A stretch of DNA of 64,000 bases, taken from NCBI GenBank assembly GCA_018223185.1, contig JAAEYW010000025.1, positions 1 through 64,000 on the forward strand, in the 5' to 3' direction. Below, piece after piece: positions 14,160-33,919 of this stretch. This DNA comes from Oceanospirillales bacterium. GTDB taxonomy: Bacteria; Pseudomonadota; Gammaproteobacteria; Pseudomonadales; Balneatricaceae. Positions within the stretch are counted from its first letter, which is position 1. Each line of letters opens with the position of its first letter. The notes below the pieces were generated by a model. The model was not told where the DNA came from, did not search any database, and saw only the letters and a list, made by a program, of their open reading frames with translations. Position numbers and translations under genes: made by a program.

Positions 14160-16673
14160 ATGAAACCCATTATAAATAAATATGCAACGGCAGGCCTGCT
14201 GTTGGCTGTCACAGGCACAACCAACGCCGGCCATTTGTTCACACAGGCATCATCGAATACCCCAACATGGATTCAGTCCGGCCAGGGAATAGTGATTGAC
14301 CAGTATGGTGACGAAGGTGGATCCGGTACTGGCGCTATCAGTATTGACTTTGAGGCCAACATTGCGCCACCAAATGGAGCCGATACCTCAACCAGCGATT
14401 GGTGGAGTTGGAGTGCCGGCGATGTCATGCGAATAAACCTTCCGCTAAGCAATGCCACCTACACCTACACCATCGCTTATGATGCCGCATCCGGCACCTG
14501 CGCCTATGACTATTGCGGCCAGACCTACATTGGCATTAACTCCTCGACGCTAGGCGATAGCGGCGTAACGCTGCCTACACATACGGGCGAACGGTCAAGT
14601 TATACCAGCTCGGATACTTCTTTCACCTGGTCTATTGAAGCCCTGGCCGGTGAGTTTTCACTGGGTGGCTACCGCTTGAGGACTTCTGGCGGAACCATCG
14701 ACGGAACCGGTGCAGGCCCTCTGGATCAGAGCAGTGTTGTCAGCGCTGAGGAAGTGGCCCAGGGCGTTACTGGTGGTAGCTCTATACCCGACATCGACAC
14801 GACCCAGACTGAATATACTGCCAGCGATGTAAATAACAATCTGGTCAATCCGAAATTTACCGGCGGTACACTTGCGATCAGCTCAGGTAGCGTACCTATT
14901 AGCACCAATTTCACCGTAGATGCGAATGGCGGTACGATCCAGGCAGATGCTGATATTGAAATTAGCGGTGTCCTGAGTGATGACAGCAGCTCCAGCGGTG
15001 GTTCACTGACCAAGACAGGCAGCGCGTCACTGACGTTATCAGGAGACAATACATTTACCGGCGACCTAATTGTAGAAGAAGGCATACTCGTTGCTGATGG
15101 CAGCCTCACAGGAAGCGTTGTCGTGAATGCAAATGGTATGCTGAAAGGATCGGGTACTGTTAGCGGCATTACATCTGATGGCACCATTGCCCCTGGTAAT
15201 TCGCCAGGCACACTGACTTCCAGCAGTAGTATTGTACTTAATTCCGGATCAACGCTACAGGAGGAGATTGATGGCCTTACCTATAATCCCGCAGGTGGAG
15301 CAGGCAGCTACGACCGCATCGCTGTCACGGGTGCAGGATCGACATTTACTGCTGATGGCACTCTGGAAATACTGCTACGAGGCATCTCCGGGGCAGCAAC
15401 CAATACATTTACCCCATCTATTGGCGACCAATTCCGTATCGTAACCACGGAAGAAGCTAACGGCGTACTCGGCAACTTCGCTCTGGTCACTCAGCCAACT
15501 GACGGTTTATCAGGCAATACCCGGTTTGATGTATTGTACGGCGCCAACTTTATTGACCTGGTGCTAACACCGGAAAGCTATGCTGCATATGCAGCCATCA
15601 ATGGCAATCAGAACTCTCGCGATGCGATGACCGCTCTTGACGCTATTCGCCCAGCCGCTGGAGTCGTCATTACAGGAGTCGATCCATTTTCCGGCCTGAC
15701 AGGCTTGTCTGAAGCTCAGTTAAACACGGCTATTGCTCAGCTCTCGGGGGAAATTCATGCTCAGAGTGCAAACGATGTTAAAGACCAGATAGTTTCTCTG
15801 AGTAATATTGTTCTGAACGCATCACGCACGTTAGATCCAGAAGAAAGACTATGGTTTAACGTTAACTACAACCGCCTCAACTATCGCGATGATAAGATCG
15901 CAACAGGATATGATTCGAACGCCAGCGCTATTGTGGTTGGCTATGACCTTGAGCGCCAACTGAACCAGCGCTATGGTCTGGGTGTTAGTTATATTGCTTC
16001 AGATCTGTCCTCAGCACTGGGCTCCTCTTCAGAAAACCAGCTTGCCTCAGTATTTGCCTATTTTGATGGCAGCCGGGAGACCGAAAACCTGGGTACACTG
16101 AACCTGTCTCTGAACGCGGGTATCGGCTTAAGCTACCGGGAGATGGCTCGTAATGTCGCTCTTTCTTCTGGTGTGAATGTCCATGAATCGAAAACCAACG
16201 AATCGCTGGTATTCGGCCAGGCCCGTATCTCCCGTCTCTTTGTTGATAGCGACAAAGCTCAGGTTACCGGTTACACCGGTTTACGCGTGCAATCCCTGAA
16301 AGGCGATGCATATACAGAAAACGGCTCATCGGACACCGCGCTGTCCGTTGCTTCAAACACCCAGACCTCCGGGCAACTGGAGCTTGGCGCCTTAGTTAGT
16401 CTGACCAATTCCGATACAGTCAGCTGGAACCTTGATGCTGGCCTGTATTCAGAGCTGATCAGCGATAATAAAACCCTCGATCGGGACGTAACTCTCGGGG
16501 CGGCCAACTGGACAGTACAAGGCACTGACACCGGCGATATCGGCGCTAAGATTGCAGCACACGGCAACTGGGCAGTGAAAGATAACATTACTGGTTTTGT
16601 AAACCTGTCCATCACAGGAACCGGTCACCGCTCAGAGGGACAGGCAAGCCTGGGAATCAGTGTAGACCTGTAA
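14160..16673 (+). CDS. Autotransporter (type Va) with PATR passenger
   Basis: An 837-residue outer-membrane autotransporter. The signal peptide (YATAGLLLAVTGTTNAG) is followed by a Ser/Thr/Gly-rich passenger. At about residues 275-355 lie passenger-associated transport repeats, for example GGSLTKTGSASLTLSGDNTF and the TIAPGNSPGTLT motif. The C-terminal 270 residues from about RLWFNVNYNRLNYRD form the beta-barrel translocator, ending GQASLGISVDL rather than the more usual aromatic residue. The passenger shows no protease triad or adhesin signature that I can recognise. GAGG lies eight bases before the ATG. A 12-bp hairpin follows the stop. It is divergent from the GMC operon and may be co-regulated with it. 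Confidence 0.87.
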   Translation: MKPIINKYATAGLLLAVTGTTNAGHLFTQASSNTPTWIQSGQGIVIDQYGDEGGSGTGAISIDFEANIAPPNGADTSTSDWWSWSAGDVMRINLPLSNATYTYTIAYDAASGTCAYDYCGQTYIGINSSTLGDSGVTLPTHTGERSSYTSSDTSFTWSIEALAGEFSLGGYRLRTSGGTIDGTGAGPLDQSSVVSAEEVAQGVTGGSSIPDIDTTQTEYTASDVNNNLVNPKFTGGTLAISSGSVPISTNFTVDANGGTIQADADIEISGVLSDDSSSSGGSLTKTGSASLTLSGDNTFTGDLIVEEGILVADGSLTGSVVVNANGMLKGSGTVSGITSDGTIAPGNSPGTLTSSSSIVLNSGSTLQEEIDGLTYNPAGGAGSYDRIAVTGAGSTFTADGTLEILLRGISGAATNTFTPSIGDQFRIVTTEEANGVLGNFALVTQPTDGLSGNTRFDVLYGANFIDLVLTPESYAAYAAINGNQNSRDAMTALDAIRPAAGVVITGVDPFSGLTGLSEAQLNTAIAQLSGEIHAQSANDVKDQIVSLSNIVLNASRTLDPEERLWFNVNYNRLNYRDDKIATGYDSNASAIVVGYDLERQLNQRYGLGVSYIASDLSSALGSSSENQLASVFAYFDGSRETENLGTLNLSLNAGIGLSYREMARNVALSSGVNVHESKTNESLVFGQARISRLFVDSDKAQVTGYTGLRVQSLKGDAYTENGSSDTALSVASNTQTSGQLELGALVSLTNSDTVSWNLDAGLYSELISDNKTLDRDVTLGAANWTVQGTDTGDIGAKIAAHGNWAVKDNITGFVNLSITGTGHRSEGQASLGISVDL

Positions 16674-19954: not shown

Positions 19955-19987
19955 AAAAAAAAACGACCCTCAGATAGGATCGTTTTA
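19955..19987 (-). terminator. Terminator of the catabolic operon
   Basis: On the minus strand ACGATCC pairs with GGGTCGT (one G-T pair) around a seven-base loop, followed by a run of nine T (AAAAAAAAA on +, 19955-19963). It lies 37 bases after the aldehyde dehydrogenase stop. Confidence 0.8.
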
Positions 19988-20023: not shown

Positions 20024-21514
20024 CTACCTCATAACGAAAGGATTACTCATCGGCTCAGATGAGGTATTGATCCACGTGGTTTTGGTTCTGACATAATCAA
20101 GCACGGCCTGTATACCTGCTTCCCGGCCATAACCCGACTGATTAATACCACCGAAAGGCGCGATAGGTGAAGTGACCCGATAAGTGTTCACCCAGCAGAT
20201 ACCAGACTGAATTTTGCTCGACACACGATGCGCTCTGGCAATGTTCTGAGTAAATACACCCGATCCCAAACCATAAACACTGTCGTTTGCCATGGCTATT
20301 GCTTCATCTTCCGTATCAAACGCAACAACCGACATAACCGGTCCAAACATTTCAGTTTTGAGGGTTTCAATCTGATCGTTCGGGCATTCAACCATCGTTG
20401 GTTCAAAATAGTGTTCAGAGCCATATTGTGGCGCACGCTTTCCGCCAAACCGTATATTGGCTCCCTGCTCAATCGCTTTAGCCAGCGTAGCTTCAATACA
20501 CTCCACCTGAGCCAGTGTGCATAAAGGCCCGATATGAGTATCGCTGGATTGAGGATCTCCAATAATAATCCGCTTCGCCTTTTCTTCTATTTTAGTCTTT
20601 AACTCTTCCAGAATTGAGCGCTGGATAAAGGCACGTGAACCTGCAACACAGGATTGCCCCGATGCGCCGAAGTTACCGGCAATAAGGCCATTAGCCGCAC
20701 TTTCTAAATCAGCATCTTCAAAGACGATAATAGGCGACTTACCCCCTAATTCTAGTGAGGTAACTGCGAAATTTTCAGCGGTATTGCGGATAACATGCTT
20801 AGCGGTTTCCGGCCCTCCGGTGAATGCAAGGCGATCAATATCCGGGTGTGAGGTCAGAGGAATGGCGCAATTAGGTGCATCACCGGTGATAATAGATACC
20901 ACACCATCTGGAAAACCCGCTTCCTGAATTAATTTCCCAAGCTCAAACATGGGCGCCGGGGCTAATTCAGATGCTTTTAACACCACCGTACAGCCTGCAG
21001 CCAATGCGGGGCCCAGCTTGGAAGCGGTAAGGAACATCTGCGCATTCCAGGGCACAACGGCGGCAACCACGCCAATTGGGACAGGTGTAGTAAAGACATG
21101 CATGTCCGGCTTATCAATCGGTAACGTCGCGCCTTCAATCTTGTCAGCAAGGCCGGCATAGTAGCGATAATAGCTGGCAACATAACGAGACTGGCTAACG
21201 GTTTCTGCTGCCAGTTTTCCACTATCCGTGGTTTCAACTTCTCCCAGTTTTTGAGCATTCTGCTCGACCAGATCAGCTAATCGATAGAGCAACGCTCCGC
21301 GTTGAGTTGCATTCATGCTTGCCCAGGGGCCGGCATTCAGGTTGCGTCTGGCAGCTTTAACTGCCCGATCAACATCATTTTTGTTAGCACAGGCAAAGGT
21401 TGCCCATTCAACCCCGTTAGCAGGATTACAACTGTGCATAATCTGTTTGTCAGCACCGTCGACCCATGCTCCGTCAATCAGCAACTGGTAATGAGGCAGG
21501 TTATTATTAATCAT
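20024..21514 (-). CDS. tgnC: Aldehyde dehydrogenase, TgnC-like
   Basis: NAD(P)-dependent aldehyde dehydrogenase of 496 residues. Visible motifs are the cofactor-binding VVPWNAQMFL, the general-base Glu in SLELGGKSP, the nucleophile Cys in GQSCVAGSR and the late MFGPVMSVV region. In the trigonelline pathway TgnC oxidises the hydroxybutyrolactone ring-cleavage product, MFMB, to MFMS; assignment to that step rests on gene context. It is the last gene of the five-gene operon and is followed by a terminator. The ATG at 21514 is used; an upstream TTG at 21529 would add five residues just after the oxygenase stop. The family is certain, the exact substrate inferred. Confidence 0.82.
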   Translation of the reverse strand: MINNNLPHYQLLIDGAWVDGADKQIMHSCNPANGVEWATFACANKNDVDRAVKAARRNLNAGPWASMNATQRGALLYRLADLVEQNAQKLGEVETTDSGKLAAETVSQSRYVASYYRYYAGLADKIEGATLPIDKPDMHVFTTPVPIGVVAAVVPWNAQMFLTASKLGPALAAGCTVVLKASELAPAPMFELGKLIQEAGFPDGVVSIITGDAPNCAIPLTSHPDIDRLAFTGGPETAKHVIRNTAENFAVTSLELGGKSPIIVFEDADLESAANGLIAGNFGASGQSCVAGSRAFIQRSILEELKTKIEEKAKRIIIGDPQSSDTHIGPLCTLAQVECIEATLAKAIEQGANIRFGGKRAPQYGSEHYFEPTMVECPNDQIETLKTEMFGPVMSVVAFDTEDEAIAMANDSVYGLGSGVFTQNIARAHRVSSKIQSGICWVNTYRVTSPIAPFGGINQSGYGREAGIQAVLDYVRTKTTWINTSSEPMSNPFVMR

Positions 21515-21533
21515 TACTTTTCTCGTCAATTCA

Positions 21534-22568
21534 TTAGCTAAATGCAGGCATTACTTCATCAATAAAGCGCGCAAGAGAGGTTTCTTTTTGCGCACGGCTC
21601 ATGCCTGAATCAGACCAGTAAGAAAACTCGTCGTAACCCAAATCCTGATAATATTTTAAGCGGTCGATTATTTGCTTCGACGTACCTATCATCAGATCTT
21701 TTCGTATTTGCTCAGCGGAATAAAAAGGATGTGCATCGATCTCTTCCTGACTCAGACGTTTAATCAGCCCCTGATCGATGGTACGTTCATTCTTAAACCA
21801 GGCACCAAAATAGCAGTAAAACTCGTTCAGCTGTTTAGCCGCACGGGTCAGCTCCGCTTCATCTTTTCCAACATAGGCATGCTGTAAAATCATGATTTTA
21901 GGGCGCTTATCATAGGTTTCGCAGGCCTGATTGAATTTACTGATCAGGCTTTCCACTTCATCCAGCCCCTGCCACAACGGCGTTACCTGAACATTACAGT
22001 CATTCTCAACAGCAAACTCATGACTGTTGATATCCCTTGCTGCCACCCAGATAGGCGGGCCTTTCTCGGATAAAGGCTTAGGCGAAGAGGTCGTTTTAGG
22101 GAAGTTATAATATTTACTTTCCTGAGTGTGATTACCTTTCCATAAACCTTTGATTGCCGGAACCATTTCCCGCAGGCGCTCGCCCGCTTCCCATGCATCC
22201 ATACCGCCTTGCATCATGCGTTCATACTCGAATGAGTATGCGCCGCGCGCGATACCAAGCTCTAAACGCCCCTGAGTGATAATATCCGTCATGGCGGCTT
22301 CGCCAGCCAGCTTAATAGGATTCCAGAATGGGGCGACGACCGTACCTGTACCCAACCGGATGTTCTTAGTCCGGTGTGCTAAATCAATCAGGTTCAGGAA
22401 CGGGTTCGGGGCAATGGTAAAGTCCATGCCATGGTGCTCACCAGTCCAAACAGTACACATGCCGCCATTATCTGCCATCTCACTCAGCGACAGAAATTCT
22501 TCGTATAGTTCGCTTTGGGTCTGTTCATCATTGACCCTTTCCATATGTGCAAATAGAGAAAACTTCAT
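21534..22568 (-). CDS. tgnB: Luciferase-like flavin-dependent oxygenase, TgnB-like
   Basis: LLM-class monooxygenase of 344 residues that uses reduced flavin supplied by a partner reductase. The TIM-barrel family is recognised from MKFSLFAHMERV, TVWTGEHHGMDFT, RLGTGTVVAPFWNPI, LELGIARGAYSFEYERM and the C-terminal IGTSKQIIDRLKYYQDLGYDEFSYW. In the trigonelline pathway the oxygenase TgnB cleaves the pyridinium ring directly between C5 and C6. The overall sequence feel and the neighbours support that role, though homarine or another N-methylpyridinium acid is possible. AGGAGGT five bases ahead fixes the start; the longer frame is an artefact. It lies 19 bases after the reductase gene. Confidence 0.82.
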   Translation of the reverse strand: MKFSLFAHMERVNDEQTQSELYEEFLSLSEMADNGGMCTVWTGEHHGMDFTIAPNPFLNLIDLAHRTKNIRLGTGTVVAPFWNPIKLAGEAAMTDIITQGRLELGIARGAYSFEYERMMQGGMDAWEAGERLREMVPAIKGLWKGNHTQESKYYNFPKTTSSPKPLSEKGPPIWVAARDINSHEFAVENDCNVQVTPLWQGLDEVESLISKFNQACETYDKRPKIMILQHAYVGKDEAELTRAAKQLNEFYCYFGAWFKNERTIDQGLIKRLSQEEIDAHPFYSAEQIRKDLMIGTSKQIIDRLKYYQDLGYDEFSYWSDSGMSRAQKETSLARFIDEVMPAFS

Positions 22569-22587
22569 CACATACCTCCTGATCTGA

Positions 22588-23496
22588 TTAGTGGATATTA
22601 CCGATTGTGTTATCACCAACATACAAACGAAACACGCCGTTTTGCTTCTCAAGTACAAAGCGTTGCAACATGCTTTGTATATCTGATGAAACAAAATTCA
22701 GATCGGCTATTTGATCTATATCGATATAATCGCCCAGCTCATTCGTCTTATCATTGTTAGCAATAGCACGGTAATATGTGGTGAACTTATGCGCGTCCAG
22801 ATTTTCGTAGACGGAGTAGACTGAACCCACTTCACAATCTAACCCCTGAGCATCCAGAAATTGGCGAATAGCCTTTTGTGAGCCCTGATCGGAGCTAATA
22901 TCAATATGCGGTAAGGTATAACCTTGCTCAGTAGGAACTAGTAACACTTTGTTTTCGAACTCAATAATACTGCCTACAACACCGTTGTGAGAGTGGGTAA
23001 GTTCTTCAGCGCGATGCTCCATACCTAAACTGAAGTAACCCCCTTTAGCATATCCCAACCCCAGCTTTTCATTGGTTGCAAAGTGATTAACCTGGCCCAC
23101 CAGCAGAATATGATCTCCTGCGGAGATATTGTTATATGTTGAGCAAGAAAAATGCGCCACTGAACCTTCGATTATTGGACAGCCATTTTCATCACTGTGC
23201 CAGCGAATACCTTCAAAGCGGTCACCTTTAGCACTGGCGAACGTGTTCGAAACATCCTGCTGATCTTCAGCAAGAATATTCACCGCAAAGTGCTTGCAGC
23301 TATTAAAAATATCAAAACTCGACAGATTATTAGACGGGCACACCAACAACAGCGGTGGATCAACAGAAACGGACGTAAATGAATTAGCGGTAAATCCGAC
23401 TTTCTCACCTGAGTCGCTTACTGCAGTCACTACGGTCACGCCAGTCATGAACGAACCAAACGCATTACGTAGCTCTCGGGTATCAATAGTGGTCAT
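22588..23496 (-). CDS. tgnA: Flavin reductase with C-terminal extension, TgnA-like
   Basis: A 302-residue NAD(P)H:flavin oxidoreductase. Residues 1-165 form the FMN-binding split-barrel domain, with FGSFMTGVTVVTA, GFTANSFTSVSVDPPLLLVC and GDHILLVGQV. The remaining 135 residues are a separate domain (from about SIIEFENKVLLVPTEQGYTLPH) with the look of a NUDIX or regulatory fold, making it longer than stand-alone flavin reductases of about 170 residues. It would supply reduced flavin to the oxygenase next door. The ATG at 23496 has AAGGAG ahead and overlaps the hydrolase stop by four bases (ATGA). Trigonelline reductase-component identity is inferred from context. Confidence 0.82.
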   Translation of the reverse strand: MTTIDTRELRNAFGSFMTGVTVVTAVSDSGEKVGFTANSFTSVSVDPPLLLVCPSNNLSSFDIFNSCKHFAVNILAEDQQDVSNTFASAKGDRFEGIRWHSDENGCPIIEGSVAHFSCSTYNNISAGDHILLVGQVNHFATNEKLGLGYAKGGYFSLGMEHRAEELTHSHNGVVGSIIEFENKVLLVPTEQGYTLPHIDISSDQGSQKAIRQFLDAQGLDCEVGSVYSVYENLDAHKFTTYYRAIANNDKTNELGDYIDIDQIADLNFVSSDIQSMLQRFVLEKQNGVFRLYVGDNTIGNIH

Positions 23497-24323
23497 GCTT
23501 GACTCCTTATTTGTGTGCCGCATTGCTGTACAAATTCGGCTAGTAATCGATTAATCTCATCAGGATGGGTCATTTGGACCATGTGACGCGAATTCTCTAT
23601 CACGGCATAACGACCATACGGACAAAGTGTCGCCATACGCTCGGACATTTGCCCCGATGAATTGGTATCGCCATCCCCGGTAATGAAGATCGCAGGTATT
23701 TGCAGCGTCATTAACGCATCATCTTCAGGACCGTCATTCTGGCTGAATATCTGATAAGCCCGGGCATAACCTGTTACGGGAGCGGCAAGCAGCCATTGCT
23801 CGCACAGATCTGCCATCTGTTTTTCCAGGCCCTGAGGGTTCTGATTAAACCAACGAATAATGGGTGTAGTCACATTATCCAGAGCAGTCGAGTTCAGCAT
23901 ATCAAGGGCGCGTTGTTGCACCGCCTGTTTTGCCTGAGGCGATCGTCGATAAACCGAATTTAGCGCCGCGACTCCGACACAAAGTTCGCTGTAACGAATC
24001 GCAAAGTTCAGTGCAATCATCGACCCCATTGAGTGCCCCATCATGATAACGGGCGCCTGAATTTCTCTATTTATCCAGTCGGCGATAACATCAACATACT
24101 CATCTAAGCCCGCATCATCCTTAACAAGCAGATCACTTTCTCCATGACCCGGCATATCAATGGCATACACTGTGTGGTGCTGACTAAGCACTGGCTCCTG
24201 ATTGAGCCAGGCTTCTGCGCGCAGTCCTACACCATGTATCAACACAACAGGAGAGCCGGAACCAGACTTGAAATAAGCAAGTCCGTTATCTGACTTATAC
24301 CGCTGCCGGGTTTTCAACATCAT
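23493..24323 (-). CDS. tgnD: Alpha/beta hydrolase, TgnD-like
   Basis: A 276-residue alpha/beta-fold hydrolase. It has the oxyanion-hole HGVG at residues 30-33, the nucleophile Ser98 in MGHSMGSM, an acid in ITGDGDTN and the catalytic His in ENSRHMVQM. In the trigonelline pathway TgnD splits (E)-2-((N-methylformamido)methylene)succinate into CO2, methylamine, formate and succinate semialdehyde. That is the most likely step here, from gene order and from the succinate-semialdehyde dehydrogenase across the promoter. GAAGGAG lies eight bases before the first of two adjacent ATGs. The start overlaps the AA_synth gene by 29 bases and the end overlaps the reductase, so the operon is tightly coupled. 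Confidence 0.8.
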   Translation of the reverse strand: MMLKTRQRYKSDNGLAYFKSGSGSPVVLIHGVGLRAEAWLNQEPVLSQHHTVYAIDMPGHGESDLLVKDDAGLDEYVDVIADWINREIQAPVIMMGHSMGSMIALNFAIRYSELCVGVAALNSVYRRSPQAKQAVQQRALDMLNSTALDNVTTPIIRWFNQNPQGLEKQMADLCEQWLLAAPVTGYARAYQIFSQNDGPEDDALMTLQIPAIFITGDGDTNSSGQMSERMATLCPYGRYAVIENSRHMVQMTHPDEINRLLAEFVQQCGTQIRSQA

Positions 24324-24894
24324 GCCCTAGCTCCTTCAGTTCCTGATATCGGTCACCTATCCGATGGTGAGGACGACCTCCGGTTGCCCCCCCTAATACC
24401 ACAACAACCTCATCAGGACCCGGTGCATCAGAGATATTGAACTGCAACGTAAGGTAATGAGATCGACGGCCACCATCATTCTTATCCATCATCGGAATCA
24501 TAATAGGTGCACTCGCCGGGCCGCGGGTATTAGTGAAAGACAGGAAAGACTTGGCTTGCACCGCTTCACGGAAGATATTCCCGAAGTGGAGGGTATGAAT
24601 TAATGCTGAAGCGTGTTCTATCTCTCCATTCATCCCAACGACAGCAGCTTTACCGAAAGCCTCAATATTCAGCGCTCCACCAGCCATTTCACTAATTTTA
24701 TCCGTCAGGATCTGACCTAAAACAGGACCGTAAGCCAGGACCTCTGGCCGCAAGTCCTCTACATACCGTCCTGCCCACGGATTTTTAATCACCGCCGCTA
24801 CCGCAAACATACGTACGGGGGTTTGTGCTTCTTTAAAACCCTCAATAAAGGTTTCTTCTTCAAAACTGACGATTTTTCTAATTTCAGGCTTCAT
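24295..24894 (-). CDS. Amino acid synthesis (AA_synth) family protein
   Basis: A 199-residue protein of the AA_synth family (DUF1185-type), recognised by MKPEIRKIVSFEEETFIEG, YGPVLGQILTDKI, AVVGMNGEIEHASALIHT and the C-terminal VVVLGGATGGRPHHRIGD. The family name is historical and the biochemical role is not settled. It is the first gene of the catabolic operon. The published trigonelline pathway needs a conserved hypothetical helper protein at the last step, and this gene is one candidate. The ATG at 24894 is used, because the longer frame reads through the palindromic operator at 24926-24945. Confidence 0.78.
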   Translation of the reverse strand: MKPEIRKIVSFEEETFIEGFKEAQTPVRMFAVAAVIKNPWAGRYVEDLRPEVLAYGPVLGQILTDKISEMAGGALNIEAFGKAAVVGMNGEIEHASALIHTLHFGNIFREAVQAKSFLSFTNTRGPASAPIMIPMMDKNDGGRRSHYLTLQFNISDAPGPDEVVVVLGGATGGRPHHRIGDRYQELKELGHDVENPAAV

Positions 24895-24925
24895 TTCATA
24901 CTCACTCAGAGAAACAAGATCGTTT

Positions 24926-24945
24926 ATTGTATTATGGTATACAAT
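24926..24945. promoter_or_regulatory. Palindromic operator in the divergent catabolic promoter
   Basis: ATTGTAT and ATACAAT form a perfect 7-bp inverted repeat around TATGGT. It lies 32 bases before the AA_synth start and about 105 bases before the GntR start. The 16 bases TTGTATTATGGTATAC (24927-24942) recur exactly at the BCCT transporter promoter. Sites of the TGGTATACCA type are typical of FCD-subfamily GntR regulators, so the adjacent GntR protein is the likely binder. Confidence 0.75.
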
Positions 24946-25051
24946 CATATAACCTTACGGCATGCAACAAAACATTCGAATTTATAGTAATCTTGGTTCC
25001 TTAGTGCTCACCCTTATATAGAGAGCCTTTACCAGCATAAACAATGGAATC

Positions 25052-25708
25052 ATGAGCAATATGTTAAAGGTAGATAGACCAAAAACTCTGAAAGAAAATG
25101 CTTTAGAGTCATTGCGGGATGCGATTACGAGTGATGTTTTCAAGCCAGGAGAGCGCCTGGTTGAACGGAACCTATGCGAAAGTATGGGAGTGAGCCGTAC
25201 TGTTGTTCGTGAGTGCATCAGACACTTAGAAAGCGAACGACTGATTGTCGGTATTCCTAATGCGGGTTTTGTAGTCGCCACTATCAGCGGTGACGAAGTA
25301 AAAGAGATTTATGATATTCGTATTATGCTCGAGTGCTCTGCCGTACGAAGTTGTGCTTTGAATGCTGATGAAGCGGTCGTTAAAGAGTTACATCAGTTAC
25401 GTGAAAAAATTGCTAACTGCCTGCAGAACGAAGACATCATGCAGGCACTGAAACTGACAACTGCGTTCTACAAATTAATTTTCACGACCGGAGGAAAGCA
25501 TGTCGCCTGGGATTTAGTTGAGCGACTAAATGCCCGCATTTCGAGGCTCCGTGCGCTGACGCTGAGTTCAGCAGGCCGAAAAACCAAAGGGCCTGACAAC
25601 TTATTAAACATCATTAATGCGATCGAACAAAAAGACACTGATCGTGCCGAAGAAATTTGCAAAAAGCATCTTACTGAGGCTGCTGAGATCGCATCTAAGT
25701 TAACATAA
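25052..25708 (+). CDS. GntR family regulator, FCD subfamily
   Basis: A 218-residue regulator with an N-terminal winged helix-turn-helix (residues 12-75: LRDAITSDVFKPGERLVERN, then MGVSRTVVRECIRHLESERL). A helical FCD effector domain follows (ISGDEVKEIYDIRIMLECSA, later INAIEQKDTDRAEEICKKHL). FCD proteins bind carboxylate ligands through metal-ligating Asp and His residues; here some positions, including the usual His cluster, look reduced. It leads a plus-strand unit with the decarboxylase-like gene (13-base gap) and diverges from the catabolic operon. It most likely controls both directions and the transporter through the shared palindrome. Confidence 0.9.
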   Translation: MSNMLKVDRPKTLKENALESLRDAITSDVFKPGERLVERNLCESMGVSRTVVRECIRHLESERLIVGIPNAGFVVATISGDEVKEIYDIRIMLECSAVRSCALNADEAVVKELHQLREKIANCLQNEDIMQALKLTTAFYKLIFTTGGKHVAWDLVERLNARISRLRALTLSSAGRKTKGPDNLLNIINAIEQKDTDRAEEICKKHLTEAAEIASKLT

Positions 25709-25721
25709 CGGTAGGTACATA

Positions 25722-26102
25722 ATGGATAAAGCTCTGTTTGAATTAGGTTTAAATAAACGTAAAGCCACCTTAGGTGAAGATTATGTCACTGACAATCTGG
25801 CTAAGGCAGATGCTTTTAATTTACCTTTTCAGGAAGCGATGACCGAGTGGTGTTGGGGATTTGGCTGGGGCGACGATACTATCGACATGAAAACCCGGTC
25901 ATTAATGAACCTCACCATGATTGCTGCACTTGGCAAGATGCATGAATGGGAGTTACATCTTCGGGGAGCGATTACTAACGGCGTTAGTATCGAGGAAATC
26001 CGATCAGCTATACATGCTATCGCTATTTATTGTGGCGTCCCACAGGGCGTTGAGTGCTTCAGAATCGCCAGAAACGTTCTGGAAGAACTCGAACTTTTAT
26101 AA
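25722..26102 (+). CDS. Carboxymuconolactone decarboxylase-like protein
   Basis: A 126-residue all-helical protein of the CMD/AhpD-like superfamily, with the PcaC-type pattern: RSLMNLTMIAALGKMHEWELH, then LRGAITNGVSIEEIRSAIHA and YCGVPQGVECFR. True PcaC decarboxylates gamma-carboxymuconolactone, but no protocatechuate genes are nearby. A role on a pathway intermediate, or as the helper hypothetical protein known from trigonelline catabolism, is more likely. It follows the regulator by 13 bases and precedes the succinate-semialdehyde dehydrogenase by about 215 bases. Confidence 0.8.
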   Translation: MDKALFELGLNKRKATLGEDYVTDNLAKADAFNLPFQEAMTEWCWGFGWGDDTIDMKTRSLMNLTMIAALGKMHEWELHLRGAITNGVSIEEIRSAIHAIAIYCGVPQGVECFRIARNVLEELELL

Positions 26103-26317
26103 TATTCGGCTGTTGATGGCGCGACTTACCTTCTCAGGATATACGCGGGCCTGATCAGACAGCATCAATCTTTATCAACACGACCGGGGCAGAACTATGC
26201 ACTGCCCCTCAGCTTTCTGCTGCCTGAAAAACTTGAATCATTTAATCCACGGCGTTGTTAACCCCAAAAGGGACGGCCGTTTATCCTTATTAACTGTTAA
26301 CGAGCAGAGTAAAATTC

Positions 26318-27781
26318 ATGTCAATTTCCAATTTGAAAGATCCCTCATTATTAAAAAATCAGTCATACATCAACGGCCAGTGGACAGATGCAGACTCGGG
26401 AAGAACATTTGATGTGATTGATCCCGCAAATGGAGAGGTTCTGGCTCAGGTGGCAGACCTGAGCGTAATAGAAACAGGCCGAGCAATTGAAGCGGCTGAT
26501 CAGGCAATGCAAACCTGGAAAAAGCAAACAGCTAAAGACCGCTCAGTTTTATTAAGAAAGTGGTTTGATTTAATAATGGCCAATCAGGATGACCTGGCAA
26601 TTATTATGACCGCTGAGCAGGGTAAAGTACTGGAAGAGTCTAAAGGTGAAATAGCGTACGGCGCATCATTCGTTGAATGGTTCGCCGAAGAGGCAAAACG
26701 TATCTATGGTGACGTCATTCCAAACACCACCCGAGATCGCCGCTCAATCGTTATTAAGCAACCGATCGGTGTTGTAGCAGCGGTGACGCCCTGGAACTTC
26801 CCTAACGCAATGATTACACGTAAGGCCGCACCCGCATTAGCGGCAGGCTGTGCAATCGTTATAAAGCCCGCAGCTGAAACACCACTCTCTGCACTGGCTT
26901 TAGCTGAGCTGGCCGACCGTGCAGGTCTTCCTGCGGGTTTGTTTAATGTCGTTGTCGGAACGGCTGCGCCTGAAATTGGTGCAGAACTGACATCAAATCC
27001 GATTATAAAGAAGTTCACTTTTACGGGGTCTACCCCGGTCGGCAAGCTACTTATGCAGCAATGCGCTCAAACCGTTAAACGAACATCTATGGAACTAGGC
27101 GGCAATGCCCCGGTGCTAGTCTTCAGTGATGCTGACCTGGATAAAGCGGTGGCCGGTGCTATTGCAGCTAAGTACCGTAACGCGGGTCAAACCTGTATAT
27201 GTGCCAATCGCATAATAGTTCAGGATACTATTTATGATGCATTCGTTGAAAAGTTCACTGCAAAAGTGAAGGAGTTCACGTTAGGTAATGGCTTTGATAA
27301 AACCGCAACGTTAGGCCCTCTGATCACAGCTAAAGCCGCAGCAAATGTTCATTCACTTGTCGTCGATGCTCAAGCAAAAGGGGCCCGTGTAACCACAGGG
27401 GGAAAGATTGACCCTCTGGGTAACACATTCTATCAGCCAACCGTACTATCTGATCTCAGCAATGATATGCGAATCGCCAGGGAAGAAATTTTTGGGCCTG
27501 TGGCTCCTATCTTCAGGTTCAGTACAGAAGAGGAAGCCGTAACGATGGCTAATGATACGGAGTTCGGTCTGGCGTCCTATCTGTTTACCAAAGATATGTC
27601 ACGCGTCTGGCGTGTTGCTGAAGCGATTGACTACGGCATGGTGGGAATCAATGAAGTCGCAATCAGCTCTGAGGTGATTCCTTTTGGTGGCGTTAAAGAG
27701 TCAGGCCAGGGACGTGAAGGGTCGAAATATGGAATGGATGACTATCTGGAGATTAAATACATTTGTATAGGTGATATCTGA
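26318..27781 (+). CDS. tgnE: Succinate-semialdehyde dehydrogenase, TgnE/GabD-like
   Basis: A 487-residue NAD(P)-dependent aldehyde dehydrogenase of the GabD type. It carries QSYINGQWTDADSGRTFDV at the N-terminus, the cofactor motif TPWNFPNAMITRKAAPALAA, the base Glu in SMELGGNAP, the nucleophile Cys in NAGQTCICANR and the C-terminal GGVKESGQGREGSKYGMDDY. It would convert succinate semialdehyde to succinate for the TCA cycle, the final step of trigonelline catabolism. A GABA-catabolic role is possible but no GABA aminotransferase gene is present in the window. A strong hairpin follows the stop. Confidence 0.85.
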   Translation: MSISNLKDPSLLKNQSYINGQWTDADSGRTFDVIDPANGEVLAQVADLSVIETGRAIEAADQAMQTWKKQTAKDRSVLLRKWFDLIMANQDDLAIIMTAEQGKVLEESKGEIAYGASFVEWFAEEAKRIYGDVIPNTTRDRRSIVIKQPIGVVAAVTPWNFPNAMITRKAAPALAAGCAIVIKPAAETPLSALALAELADRAGLPAGLFNVVVGTAAPEIGAELTSNPIIKKFTFTGSTPVGKLLMQQCAQTVKRTSMELGGNAPVLVFSDADLDKAVAGAIAAKYRNAGQTCICANRIIVQDTIYDAFVEKFTAKVKEFTLGNGFDKTATLGPLITAKAAANVHSLVVDAQAKGARVTTGGKIDPLGNTFYQPTVLSDLSNDMRIAREEIFGPVAPIFRFSTEEEAVTMANDTEFGLASYLFTKDMSRVWRVAEAIDYGMVGINEVAISSEVIPFGGVKESGQGREGSKYGMDDYLEIKYICIGDI

Positions 27782-27787
27782 CGATTG

Positions 27788-27824
27788 CCTGATTAACCGT
27801 TTCAAACTGAAACGGTTAATCAGG
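27788..27824 (+). terminator. Long perfect hairpin after the dehydrogenase gene
   Basis: CCTGATTAACCGTTTC (27788-27803) pairs with GAAACGGTTAATCAGG (27809-27824), 16 perfect pairs around a 5-base loop. There is no T run. It probably ends the GntR-CMD-dehydrogenase transcript or protects its 3' end. Confidence 0.6.
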
Positions 27825-28231
27825 GTACACATTAGCTCAGAATACTCCATGATCCATCCGGGCATGCAGTGACAATATTGAATAGCTCTGACATATCGGC
27901 CAGAGCTATTTCATCGCTTAGGCCTGAACATCACCATGCAGGTGAGAAATTACTCAGCATAAGCGCCCCTCCTGAAACTATTTCTTACGGCCCAGCCTGA
28001 AACTAAAATAATCAATAAAAACATAACCTTATAAGCAAAACTATAGCCCGTCCTCTTTTTTATCCCGTTGTATTCACTTTTCTATTGTTTGGAATATAAT
28101 TTGATCGCATATTTGTATTATGGTATACCATAATACAGTGAGAGCAAGTTGCACGGGTTTGCTGCTGTTTCCCGGTCTGACCGGAAAGGCGACAAACATC
28201 TACTAATAAAATAAAGAAGGGAATATGCGAT
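27825..28231. other. Long upstream region of the BCCT gene
   Basis: About 400 bases without a gene. Apart from the hairpin at its left edge and the 24-bp palindrome at 28114-28137, I see only AT-rich promoter-like sequence (for example TATAAT at 28095-28100) and the leader before the transporter. No small ORF with a good ribosome-binding site stands out. Confidence 0.5.
28114..28137. promoter_or_regulatory. Perfect 24-bp palindromic operator of the BCCT gene
   Basis: TGTATTATGGTA is followed directly by its reverse complement TACCATAATACA. It lies 94 bases before the transporter start. Sixteen bases, TTGTATTATGGTATAC (28113-28128), are identical to the site in the divergent catabolic promoter at 24927-24942. 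The core ATGGTATACCAT matches known FCD-GntR operator style. Confidence 0.8.
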
Positions 28232-29860
28232 ATGCAGCCCAATAAAATAATAGCCTCGAAGGGCTTTTTCCACGGGGTACATCCCGGGATGGGGATTGCC
28301 TCCAAAGCAATGGTTTTAGCCTTTGTTCTTTTTACAATTATCAATGTGGACTTCGCTAACGGGATATACAGCGATATAAAAACCTGGATTCAAACAACCC
28401 TGAACTGGTACTACGTTACCGTTGTTAGCCTTGTTTTATTCTTCTCCATCTGGGTAGCCTTCAGTCGCTTCGGCAATTTACGCCTGGGTAAAGATGATGA
28501 AAAACCCGAGTTTGGCTTCATGACCTGGTTTTCGATGCTTTTCAGTTGCGCCATTGGTACCGGCATTCTCTTCTGGAGTATTGCAGAACCTATTTTCCAC
28601 TTTCAGGGCAACCCATTTATCGAGATGGCAGGTATAGCGTCAGGTACTGCCGAAGCCGCCCAGATGGCTATGCGAATCACCCTGTTTCACTGGGGCCTTC
28701 ATGGCTGGGCTATCTATATAATTGTTGGCCTGATACTGGCGTATTTCGCCTATCGCCGGGGATTACCCCTCACCATTCGTTCGGCACTTTACCCTCTTCT
28801 GGGTGACCGTATATATGGGCCTATCGGCCATGCCGTAGATCTTTTAGCTATATTCAGTACGCTGTTCGGTACTGCGACCACGCTGGGCCTGGGTGTATCC
28901 CAAATGAATGCTGGTTTGAACTACCTGTTTGGTATAGAGATATCGACTACAACACAGGTGATCCTGATTGCGATCATATCTGTTGTCGGGACATTATCAG
29001 CGGTATCCGGAGTCGAAAAAGGCATTAAGTTCCTCAGCATCTGGAACATCCGGATCAGTGCCATTCTGATTCTCTTCTTCCTTCTGGCCGGGCCGACTGT
29101 ATTCCTGTTAGGTATGTTTGTTACCAGCGTTGGTGATTACATGTGGAACCTGATCCCTATGGGGTTCTGGACCGATCCAAATCCACAAGGCCAGTGGCAG
29201 GGATGGTGGACTATATTTTACTGGGGATGGTGGTTGTCCTGGGGCCCTCTGGTTGGCATGTTCATCGCGCGTATTTCCCGAGGCCGGACTATCCGTCAGT
29301 TCTTATTAACCGCATTAATTATTCCGCCATTGGGTGGATTCCTGTGGATCGTAATCTTCGGTGGTACTGCGCTACATATGGAACTATATGGAGCAGGAGG
29401 TATTGTAGAGGCGGTTAATAGCGACATGACAATGGCGCTCTATAAGACGATTGAAGGTCTGGGAGTCGATTCACTGACCTGGCCAATGTCGGCACTTGCC
29501 ACCTTCATGATAATCACCTGGTTTGTCACTTCAGCTGACTCCGGTACTTTAGTTATCTGCACCATTCTGTCCGTGGGCGATAGAAATCCACCGCAGCGCT
29601 TTCGAATTATATGGGGCATGGGTCTAGGTGCTGTTGCGGCGGTTCTGCTGATGGCCGGTGGCCTTAAAGCTCTGCAGACCGCTTCCATCGCGGCAGCACT
29701 GCCCTTCTCCGTGGTGCTTCTGTTTATGTGTGTTGCATTGGTGAAAGGACTCAACGATGAAGCTAATGGCGTGGTTTACAGCACAACGCCACGCCAACCT
29801 GAAACAGAAACAGAAACAAACGAAGCGTTACTGCCGGTAGAGGTTAAGGTCTCATCCTGA
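28232..29860 (+). CDS. BCCT family betaine transporter
   Basis: A 542-residue secondary transporter of the betaine/carnitine/choline family with about twelve membrane helices. It shows the glycine-rich substrate segment (CAIGTGILFWSIAEP) and the tryptophan-rich motif in helix 8 (FYWGWWLSWGPLVGMFIARI, followed by SRGRTIRQF). Trigonelline and homarine are zwitterionic N-methyl betaines, and the promoter carries the same palindrome as the catabolic operon, so it is the likely uptake system for the pathway substrate. An osmoprotectant role is the alternative, but long N- or C-terminal osmosensing tails are absent. GAAGGG lies about ten bases ahead of the start. Confidence 0.9.
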   Translation: MQPNKIIASKGFFHGVHPGMGIASKAMVLAFVLFTIINVDFANGIYSDIKTWIQTTLNWYYVTVVSLVLFFSIWVAFSRFGNLRLGKDDEKPEFGFMTWFSMLFSCAIGTGILFWSIAEPIFHFQGNPFIEMAGIASGTAEAAQMAMRITLFHWGLHGWAIYIIVGLILAYFAYRRGLPLTIRSALYPLLGDRIYGPIGHAVDLLAIFSTLFGTATTLGLGVSQMNAGLNYLFGIEISTTTQVILIAIISVVGTLSAVSGVEKGIKFLSIWNIRISAILILFFLLAGPTVFLLGMFVTSVGDYMWNLIPMGFWTDPNPQGQWQGWWTIFYWGWWLSWGPLVGMFIARISRGRTIRQFLLTALIIPPLGGFLWIVIFGGTALHMELYGAGGIVEAVNSDMTMALYKTIEGLGVDSLTWPMSALATFMIITWFVTSADSGTLVICTILSVGDRNPPQRFRIIWGMGLGAVAAVLLMAGGLKALQTASIAAALPFSVVLLFMCVALVKGLNDEANGVVYSTTPRQPETETETNEALLPVEVKVSS

Positions 29861-29940: not shown

Positions 29941-29965
29941 AGCGGTCATAACGGCCGCTTTTTTT
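29941..29965 (+). terminator. Rho-independent terminator
   Basis: AGCGG (29941-29945) pairs with CCGCT (29955-29959), followed by seven T ending at 29965. Confidence 0.65.
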
Positions 29966-32149: not shown

Positions 32150-32254
32150 TCATCCGAACACCAAAAATATGAATTAAGTGACGGAATAAATTGACTCCGG
32201 CCCTTTTTATTCCGATGTTTAGATAATCGCTGAATGATCACTAAGGAGTCTGTT

Positions 32255-33919
32255 ATGGCCACCGATGTCGAAATTGCTCTACAGTTCACTCCCCGGCCAG
32301 TTGCAGAGATCGCAGAGAAACTCGGGATCAGTCATGACTTTCTGAACCATTATGGCCGCGATATCGCCAAGGTCGATCTGCAGGCGCTCACCCATAACGG
32401 CCGCAAGCCCGGCAGACTGATTCTGGTTTCAGCCACCACACCCACGCCATCCGGAGAGGGGAAAACCACCACCACAATCGGCCTGGCGCAGGCGTTTTCA
32501 CAACTGAATGAGTCCGTCTGCATGGCCTTGAGGGAACCCTCTCTGGGCCCCTGCCTGGGAATGAAAGGCGGAGCCACCGGTGGTGGCTATAGCCAGATCA
32601 TGCCTGCGGACCGAATCAATCTGCACTTTACCGGTGATTTTCATGCAATCACCAGTGCCAATAACCTGCTTTCGGCCGCGCTCGACAACCATATCTACCA
32701 TGGCAACGACCTGGGTATTGATCCACGGCAGATTGTCTGGCGCCGGGTCATGGATATGAATGATCGCAGCCTGCGTAAGATCGTTCTGGGCCTCGGCGGT
32801 AAAACACAAGGCACTCCCAGGGAGGGCGGCTTCGATATTACCGCGGCGTCTGAGGTCATGGCGATGCTCTGTCTGGCCGAAGATACAGATGACCTGAAGC
32901 GGCGCCTTGATCGCACCCTGATCGGTTATACCTATGCAGGCGAGCCTGTATATGCCGCACAGCTGAAGATTACCGGCGCGATGATGGCGCTACTGCGCGA
33001 TGCCCTGCAACCCAACCTGGTACAAAGCCTGGAAGGCACTCCGGCCTTCGTTCATGGGGGACCGTTTGCCAATATCGCCCACGGCTGCAACAGCGTAATC
33101 GCGACCCGGATGGCGATGAAGTATGCCGACTGGGCAATCACAGAAGCGGGATTTGGTTTTGATCTGGGGGCGGAGAAGTTCTTCGATATTAAATGCCGGA
33201 TTGCCAATCTGGACCCGGCTGCAGTGATTCTGGTGACCACCGTGCGAGCTCTGAAGATGCATGGAGGGAAACAGAAAAGCACGCTGGAGTCCGAAGACCT
33301 GACCGCCGTAAAGCTGGGGCTGGGCAATCTGGATAAACATATCGAGAGTGTCATTATCTTTAATAAACAGCCGGTAGTGGCGCTTAACCGCTTTGCCACC
33401 GACACCGATGCCGAGGTCGCTATAATTCGTGATCGCTGCACCGAGCTTGGCATTGCCTTCGCCGTAACCACTCACCATGCCGATGGCGGTAAAGGCGCGC
33501 TTGAACTGGCCCGTGCGGTCATCGCCTCAGCACAACAAAACAGGCCTTTCAAACCGTTGTATGACCTCGATCTGACCGTGCTGGAAAAAGTGCGGGCGGT
33601 TTGCAGGCAGATGTATGGTGCGGATGATGTCGCGTTCACAAAAGAGGCGGCAAAAGATCTTCAGCTTGTCGAACAACTGGGCCTGAGCCATCTGCCGGTC
33701 TGTATCGCTAAAGCGCCAAGCTCGCTTTCGGATGATCCGTTACTGCATGGCAGACCCCGGGACTTTGAAGTTACCGTCAGAGCGATTCAGATCAATTCCG
33801 GTGCTGGATTTCTGGTGATTCTGACCGGTGATATCCTGCGGATGCCAGGGCTGCCGAAAGAACCGGCGGCCAACCAGATGCGGTTACTCAAAAGTGGCGT
33901 AATCGAAGGGCTGGAATAA
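32255..33919 (+). CDS. fhs: Formate-tetrahydrofolate ligase
   Basis: Catalyses ATP + formate + tetrahydrofolate to 10-formyl-tetrahydrofolate. The 554-residue length is right for the family. The nucleotide-binding loop TPSGEGKTTTTIGLAQA is near residues 62-78, and KGGATGGGYSQIMPA, FVHGGPFANIAHGCNS and the C-terminal SGAGFLVILTGDILRMPG are diagnostic. The ATG at 32255 has AAGGAG seven bases ahead; the longer frame is unnecessary. It is monocistronic. Because the putative trigonelline pathway 2 kb upstream releases formate, it could return that carbon to one-carbon metabolism; this link is inferred from proximity alone. Confidence 0.95.
   Translation: MATDVEIALQFTPRPVAEIAEKLGISHDFLNHYGRDIAKVDLQALTHNGRKPGRLILVSATTPTPSGEGKTTTTIGLAQAFSQLNESVCMALREPSLGPCLGMKGGATGGGYSQIMPADRINLHFTGDFHAITSANNLLSAALDNHIYHGNDLGIDPRQIVWRRVMDMNDRSLRKIVLGLGGKTQGTPREGGFDITAASEVMAMLCLAEDTDDLKRRLDRTLIGYTYAGEPVYAAQLKITGAMMALLRDALQPNLVQSLEGTPAFVHGGPFANIAHGCNSVIATRMAMKYADWAITEAGFGFDLGAEKFFDIKCRIANLDPAAVILVTTVRALKMHGGKQKSTLESEDLTAVKLGLGNLDKHIESVIIFNKQPVVALNRFATDTDAEVAIIRDRCTELGIAFAVTTHHADGGKGALELARAVIASAQQNRPFKPLYDLDLTVLEKVRAVCRQMYGADDVAFTKEAAKDLQLVEQLGLSHLPVCIAKAPSSLSDDPLLHGRPRDFEVTVRAIQINSGAGFLVILTGDILRMPGLPKEPAANQMRLLKSGVIEGLE

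Follow-up and report, generated by a model that had tools for sequence, protein, structure and literature searches.

A putative trigonelline degradation island with a BCCT transporter gene and a shared promoter palindrome in an Oceanospirillales bacterium

Which compound is taken up and degraded by the products of the nine genes at positions 20,024 to 29,860 of contig JAAEYW010000025.1 from an Oceanospirillales bacterium (assembly GCA_018223185.1, family Balneatricaceae)? These genes form an island within the stretch of 64,000 nucleotides that we analysed, hereafter the window, and an initial annotation had assigned them to a trigonelline-type pathway with its own transporter. Based on homology to Acinetobacter baylyi, we consider it very likely that the island serves to take up and degrade trigonelline (N-methylnicotinate), with tgn enzymes, import by a BCCT protein, control by a GntR regulator and a palindromic motif, and salvage of the methylamine encoded elsewhere in the genome. 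The trigonelline pathway of A. baylyi was reportedly described by Perchat et al. in PNAS in 2018, where it is also said to be widespread, and the step chemistry used here follows that description, in agreement with the initial annotation. The island would be a trigonelline (tgn) degradation cluster and a further member of this already known pathway. Trigonelline is a nitrogen compound made by plankton as well as plants; according to a published study, it accumulates in higher plants and was detected at 1–300 pM in a marine transect (PMC8269262).

All nine genes lie at the stated place and in the stated order, and the families listed in the initial annotation were all recovered with Pfam models, which identify two Aldedh dehydrogenases, a Bac_luciferase oxygenase, a Flavin_Reduct reductase, an alpha/beta hydrolase, an AA_synth protein, a regulator with GntR and FCD domains, a CMD protein and a BCCT transporter. 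The oxygenase, TgnB, is 65% identical to A. baylyi TgnB and 64.8% identical to the product of an Acinetobacter plasmid gene annotated tgnB. In a tree of 49 rows (46 hand-picked from 106 neighbourhood loci, two paralogues from the same genome as outgroup, and the window), it joins A. baylyi TgnB in a clade of 39 rows (support 100/98), the placement on which the initial annotation had staked its reading. All eight rows from paralogous clusters fall outside this clade; its sister is a Mesorhizobium oxygenase from among the eight (95/99 for the joint group of 40 rows). TgnD is 40% identical to its A. baylyi counterpart, and whole-genome searches return the two hydrolases as best hits in both directions (7.0e-54, next hit 3.0e-20; 2.7e-54, next hit 4.1e-15), as orthologues; the TgnD residues S98, D219 and H247 are invariant and would form the catalytic triad. 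TgnC is 54% identical to the protein of the A. baylyi locus over 98% coverage, its gene follows tgnB directly in both, and C294 and E260, which we take to be the catalytic residues, are conserved throughout the window group and the remaining 33 rows examined from the clade. TgnE (55% identity) exceeds the cut-off of 646.35 bits of the curated succinate-semialdehyde dehydrogenase model TIGR01780, and the regulator is 42% identical to its counterpart. The CMD protein is 50% identical to the A. baylyi protein adjoining TgnE and scores 116.9 bits with the PcaC model, below the cut-off of 155.7, and the AA_synth protein is 64% identical to its A. baylyi counterpart, with three matches at E ≤ 0.001 in a fold search, all of them DUF1185 structures, including 3byq and 2qtp. 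Gene order, the reciprocal TgnD hits, the TgnE score and the promoter motif described below agree in placing the locus with the A. baylyi tgn type, as had been proposed.

The reductase, TgnA, is 39% identical to its A. baylyi counterpart and does carry the extra domain that had been noted in it. Residues 8–311 match PDB 3rh7 (S. meliloti SMa0793), a two-domain architecture, and the C-terminal 143 residues are modelled at a mean predicted local distance difference test score (pLDDT) of 91, with 3rh7 as best match in a fold search, followed by Nudix hydrolases. The familiar pattern of the Nudix box is absent from this domain in every aligned row (0/26). As modelled, the extra domain is a Nudix fold without a Nudix box, and we can guess at a regulatory or flavin-handling role. 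Besides, a plasmid cluster of Arthrobacter dokdonellae (L126:881-10068) combines an oxygenase with a riboflavin kinase, a stand-alone Pfam NUDIX protein, a tautomerase and two AA_synth genes, and appears to package flavin supply with a flavin oxygenase.

The gene set recurs well beyond the window. Homologues were counted in 96 neighbourhood loci, a set that includes four paralogous clusters and some loci cut by contig ends, at E ≤ 1e-5 anywhere in the locus: the oxygenase is matched in 96, TgnD in 95, TgnC in 95 (at least 40% identity), AA_synth in 94, TgnA in 93, the GntR regulator in 86, TgnE in 52 (at least 45%), CMD in 51 and BCCT in 13. With matches in 94 of these loci, AA_synth is nearly as constant as the catalytic core, and this conserved partner without an assigned step may be a testable missing piece of the pathway. 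Among related genomes, a close orthologue of the oxygenase (E < 1e-200) was found in 8 of the 57 searched, the window's own included, and 8 of 17 genomes of the genus carry the tgn oxygenase gene; three more genomes of the family have an oxygenase at 45–49% identity, and a further copy, at 39%, occurs in one congener.

A palindrome, TATGGTATACCATA, is common to the divergent AA_synth/GntR promoters of tgn loci. Visual inspection of the window together with 25 loci first revealed it. The core loci number 98, of which 80 are the top 80 among 559 relatives of an Acinetobacter TgnB, 11 are plasmid loci and 7 come from congeners; owing to this origin they are not independent of one another and make up an uneven sample. 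The motif was scored in 96 of them, two being cut, over 300 bp upstream of AA_synth anchored on residue 24. Its 12-base core, ATGGTATACCAT, occurs at two or fewer mismatches in 95 of the 96 (31 exact, 51 with one mismatch and 13 with two). Shuffling gave a mean of 0.7 of 96, and stretches drawn at random from these loci, some of which happened to include the real site, gave 2.7 of 96. An earlier count at up to three mismatches in 14 had given 51 of 96 loci (shuffles 0.9, random stretches 2.2), a low value because the AA_synth start had been placed too far upstream in many loci. Among the paralogous clusters, one of the seven scored has the motif upstream of AA_synth, and in three others a copy at 0–1 mismatch precedes the oxygenase gene.

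Genome-wide, the site at 28119, before the BCCT gene, is the sole copy of TATGGTATACCATA at 0–1 mismatch in the 4.6-Mb genome of the window, and a search at two mismatches in 14 comes near to noise, with 11 sites versus 8 in the reversed control. The exact 14-mer has four copies among 17 congeners, corresponding to the window's genome and three relatives with the same BCCT. With exact 12-mers assigned to promoters by comparing coordinates, a single copy sits at the tgn promoter in all four alphaproteobacterial genomes searched; A. baylyi has three copies, one of them 5' of tgnE, and the one Burkholderia genome searched has none. Exact 12-mers outside the tgn locus of A. baylyi lie at G057:C4:300606 and G057:C7:322221. 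The motif also stands, at 0–1 mismatch, upstream of the oxygenase paralogues of 44–49% identity (L031:10429, L032:15653 and L033:10565), which suggests a related regulon in the same bacterial family.

From these positions we infer that the FCD-GntR protein binds sites of the TATGGTATACCATA type. We lean, with some reserve, towards one ancient GntR/operator pair that governs the use of trigonelline across alpha-, beta- and gammaproteobacteria and into which importers of unrelated types (BCCT, NCS1, ABC) can plug as into a socket. If true, the BCCT of the window would be specialised for trigonelline and would have been recruited when it acquired a perfect operator of its own; searching other genomes for this operator could then reveal more trigonelline genes. 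Together, the motif and the tgnB clade would allow trigonelline users and their transporters to be recognised in genomes. In literature text searches, the listed matches to the motif strings held only a 10-mer and mostly concerned respiratory syncytial virus or respiratory viruses, and no title or abstract start among the matches listed links trigonelline to GntR, an operon, a transporter or BCCT. With no prior description among those matches, the motif and the transporter link appear as additions to the known pathway.

The transporter gene is where the main alternative arises. The BCCT protein scores 493.9 bits with TIGR00842, above the cut-off of 407.55, and carries the segments FHWGLHGWAIY and YWGWWLSWGP, presumably its aromatic box; in the BCCT of one congener locus (L027) these segments are altered. 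Its best NCBIfam model is that of a glycine betaine BCCT, which favours the view that the pathway is as described but that the transporter takes up glycine betaine or another general osmolyte and adjoins the tgn genes by chance, although the score (567.4 bits) stays under the cut-off of 650. We regard this as unlikely, since the genome's only motif copy at 0–1 mismatch precedes the BCCT gene and recurs in the three relatives that share this BCCT, since three other BCCT genes (35–43% identity) exist in the genome, and since BCCT genes follow tgnC directly in 9 of the 98 core loci. In these loci, the gene types directly after tgnC (within 4.5 kb on the same strand) are NCS1 in 50, an ABC binding protein in 17, BCCT in 9 and none of the searched types in 15, with 7 loci cut; the queries covered BCCT, NCS1, one ABC system and one MFS. 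Clustering of neighbouring open reading frames as a way to find transporters was dropped on account of the many antisense frames of GC-rich genomes. The window, like its three closest relatives, has the BCCT gene at the opposite end of the island, with its own motif copy. Because that copy, about 100 bp before the gene, is the only one of its quality in the genome, the transporter probably belongs to the same regulon as the tgn genes.

Disposal of the products can also be followed in the genome. Contig 4 holds a gene run resembling gmaS, mgsABC, purU, folD, mgdA, mgdC and mgdD, as listed from open reading frames of at least 150 residues. PurU scores above its cut-off, FolD above a subfamily cut-off and the gmaS candidate above that of the type III glutamate-ammonia ligase model. 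The mgdA and mgdC candidates match sarcosine oxidase family models below their cut-offs, and those for mgs and mgdD have distant matches or none, so that the gmaS, mgs and mgd names rest on gene order and on the 64% identity of the mgdC candidate to its A. baylyi counterpart. An mgdC orthologue is present in all eight tgn-positive congeners versus three of the nine tgn-negative ones (one-sided Fisher test, p 0.007, rising to 0.019 once the two genomes of less than 90% completeness are dropped; kinship is not corrected for), where an orthologue means at least 59% identity, or 52–61% in pieces (G002), and matches of 36–38% were taken as sarcosine oxidase.

By analogy with A. baylyi, we propose the following scheme, for which the sequence itself supplies the gene identities and order, the clade, the motif sites and the salvage operon. 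The BCCT protein would import trigonelline; TgnA would supply reduced flavin; TgnB would open the pyridinium ring by means of this flavin and O2; TgnC would oxidise the ring-opening product; hydrolysis by TgnD would release succinate semialdehyde, methylamine, formate and CO2; and TgnE would convert the semialdehyde to succinate. The AA_synth and CMD proteins presumably assist in handling unstable intermediates. The FCD-GntR regulator would occupy the site 5' of the BCCT gene and that in the divergent gntR/AA_synth promoter, letting go of them in the presence of an inducer, and the gmaS-mgs-mgd-like operon elsewhere in the genome would salvage the methylamine.

Several observations weigh against this scheme or against the reach of the motif. 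The A. baylyi reference locus (L044) is that of the type strain and not of ADP1. TgnA and TgnD are only 39–40% identical to their A. baylyi counterparts, a long stem (0.4) lies under the window group in the TgnB tree, and the TgnC of the window group shows uniform changes at 25 positions that are invariant in the 33 other members of the TgnB clade, the comparison used for all proteins here (157 invariant TgnC positions are shared). Four congeners (L026, L027, L029 and L030) have a different BCCT, 37–38% identical to that of the window, directly after tgnC. As for the motif, it was derived from 25 loci that were later included in the count, most of the counted loci are related (80 of 98 being relatives of a single Acinetobacter TgnB), and site 1 of the window, TATGGTATACAATC, is imperfect, with two mismatches in 14 and one in the 12-base core. 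One-mismatch 14-mers occur twice in the tgn-negative G007 and once each away from tgn genes in G003, G006 and G012; in the reversed control, G003 and G006 yield one copy each.

Because of the low TgnA and TgnD identities, the long TgnB stem and the 25 TgnC changes, a related substrate is possible, namely another N-alkyl or N-heteroaromatic acid near trigonelline that is degraded by the same chemistry. Module re-use of this kind is also suggested by sister clusters with similar gene sets and diverged reductases, two of them with amino-acid ABC transporters. On the other hand, gene order and promoter motif are conserved, and the window group differs uniformly at only 5 TgnB positions that are otherwise invariant, with 118 shared; the corresponding numbers are 3 versus 47 for TgnA, 5 versus 41 for TgnD and 4 versus 67 for AA_synth. 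We hold such a shifted substrate to be improbable. The homarine (N-methylpicolinate) variant that the initial annotation had allowed for is more improbable still: homarine belongs to the same compound class, would suit a betaine-type transporter and is used with the participation of mgd, of which this genome has similar genes, but the closest characterised locus is for trigonelline, no mgd gene lies within the island, a 2021 paper considers action of TgnA/TgnB on homarine unlikely owing to steric hindrance (PMC8269262), and another publication (PMC13390433) cites a 2026 paper for a separate homarine pathway with Mgd among its participants.

Trigonelline remains the substrate that we favour, and the features of the island are collected below.

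Features of the proposed trigonelline island, with positions in the window
Feature	Position	Strand	Evidence
TgnC-like aldehyde dehydrogenase	20024..21529	-	Aldedh 502 bits (Pfam)
TgnB-like flavin-dependent oxygenase	21534..22568	-	Bac_luciferase (Pfam), identity, tree
TgnA-like flavin reductase with C-terminal Nudix-fold domain (~residues 170-311)	22588..23523	-	Flavin_Reduct (Pfam)
TgnD-like alpha/beta hydrolase	23493..24323	-	reciprocal best hit with A. baylyi
AA_synth (DUF1185) protein, start inferred	24295..24894	-	PF06684 234 bits
Operator-like site 1 (putative), divergent AA_synth/GntR promoter	24933..24946	.	TATGGTATACAATC, motif match
FCD-GntR regulator	25052..25708	+	GntR and FCD domains (Pfam)
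CMD-family protein	25722..26102	+	PF02627
TgnE-like succinate-semialdehyde dehydrogenase	26318..27781	+	Aldedh (Pfam); TIGR01780 697.6 bits
Operator-like site 2 (putative), ~100 bp 5' of BCCT start	28119..28132	.	perfect TATGGTATACCATA
BCCT transporter, proposed trigonelline importer	28232..29860	+	PF02028 619 bits

Two gene starts were revised. Aligned homologues place that of the oxygenase at the ATG at 22568, the listed TTG at 22694 being too early. The AA_synth frame as called from 24948 would span operator-like site 1, and its residues 1–17 are modelled at pLDDT below 50, so the true start is probably codon 19 (24894). The AA_synth and TgnD genes overlap, as in A. baylyi. Terminator-like hairpins flank the island at 19960-19986 (-) and 29941-29959 (+), the scanned stretch having 16 such sites versus a shuffle mean of 10.3. 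Promoter-like sites are rarer than in shuffles (9 versus 18.6), so the best of them, at 28073-28100 immediately 5' of operator-like site 2, carries little weight. We place the end of the island at the BCCT gene, since the AraC, MFS and Fhs genes just past 29860 have no match in 11 compared neighbourhoods. Formate-tetrahydrofolate ligase was dropped as an island member for want of a match in these neighbourhoods of relatives; its gene (32234-33919, 826 bits, cut-off 652) lies 2.4 kb from the island, and the enzyme could consume the formate released by the pathway. Further away, an open reading frame of 837 residues at 14160-16673 looks autotransporter-like judging by its sequence alone.

Comparison with known and related loci places the window close to the tgn type. 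The sister clusters L028:2088-13345 (the second cluster of G001), L124 and L125 contain a tgnB-like oxygenase (38%), an aldehyde dehydrogenase, a reductase, a hydrolase, CMD and AA_synth, with amino-acid ABC transporters in L124 and L125, and lack the motif at up to two mismatches upstream of AA_synth; perhaps they act on another pyridine acid. Rhizobia and roseobacters (Phyllobacterium L122, Ruegeria L119 and Leisingera L035) share with the window the order AA_synth-hydrolase-reductase-oxygenase-dehydrogenase and the motif. Unlike the window, none of the three has a CMD match, L035 has no TgnE match at 45% identity or more, L122 has an ABC transporter after tgnC, and L119 and L035 have none of the searched transporter types within 4.5 kb. 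In Pseudovibrio (L098-L100 and L118), the tgn core is likewise accompanied by BCCT (52–54% identical) and CMD (74–76% identical), but the BCCT gene follows tgnC directly in the same direction and has no second motif copy at 0–1 mismatch. The core order of the window also recurs on an Acinetobacter plasmid whose genes bear the annotations tgnA, tgnB and tgnC. The A. baylyi locus has homologues of eight of the nine genes (TgnA-E, AA_synth, CMD and FCD-GntR), the same order AA_synth-TgnD-TgnA-TgnB-TgnC divergent from FCD-GntR, and the motif in the divergent promoter. The two differ in that the transporter gene of A. baylyi is of the NCS1 (cytosine-permease) type and that of the window BCCT, and in that CMD and TgnE come after the regulator gene in the window. 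The mgdC orthologue adjoins the A. baylyi island but lies on another contig in the genome of the window, and the gene preceded by the perfect motif copy is tgnE in A. baylyi, as against that of the BCCT in the window.

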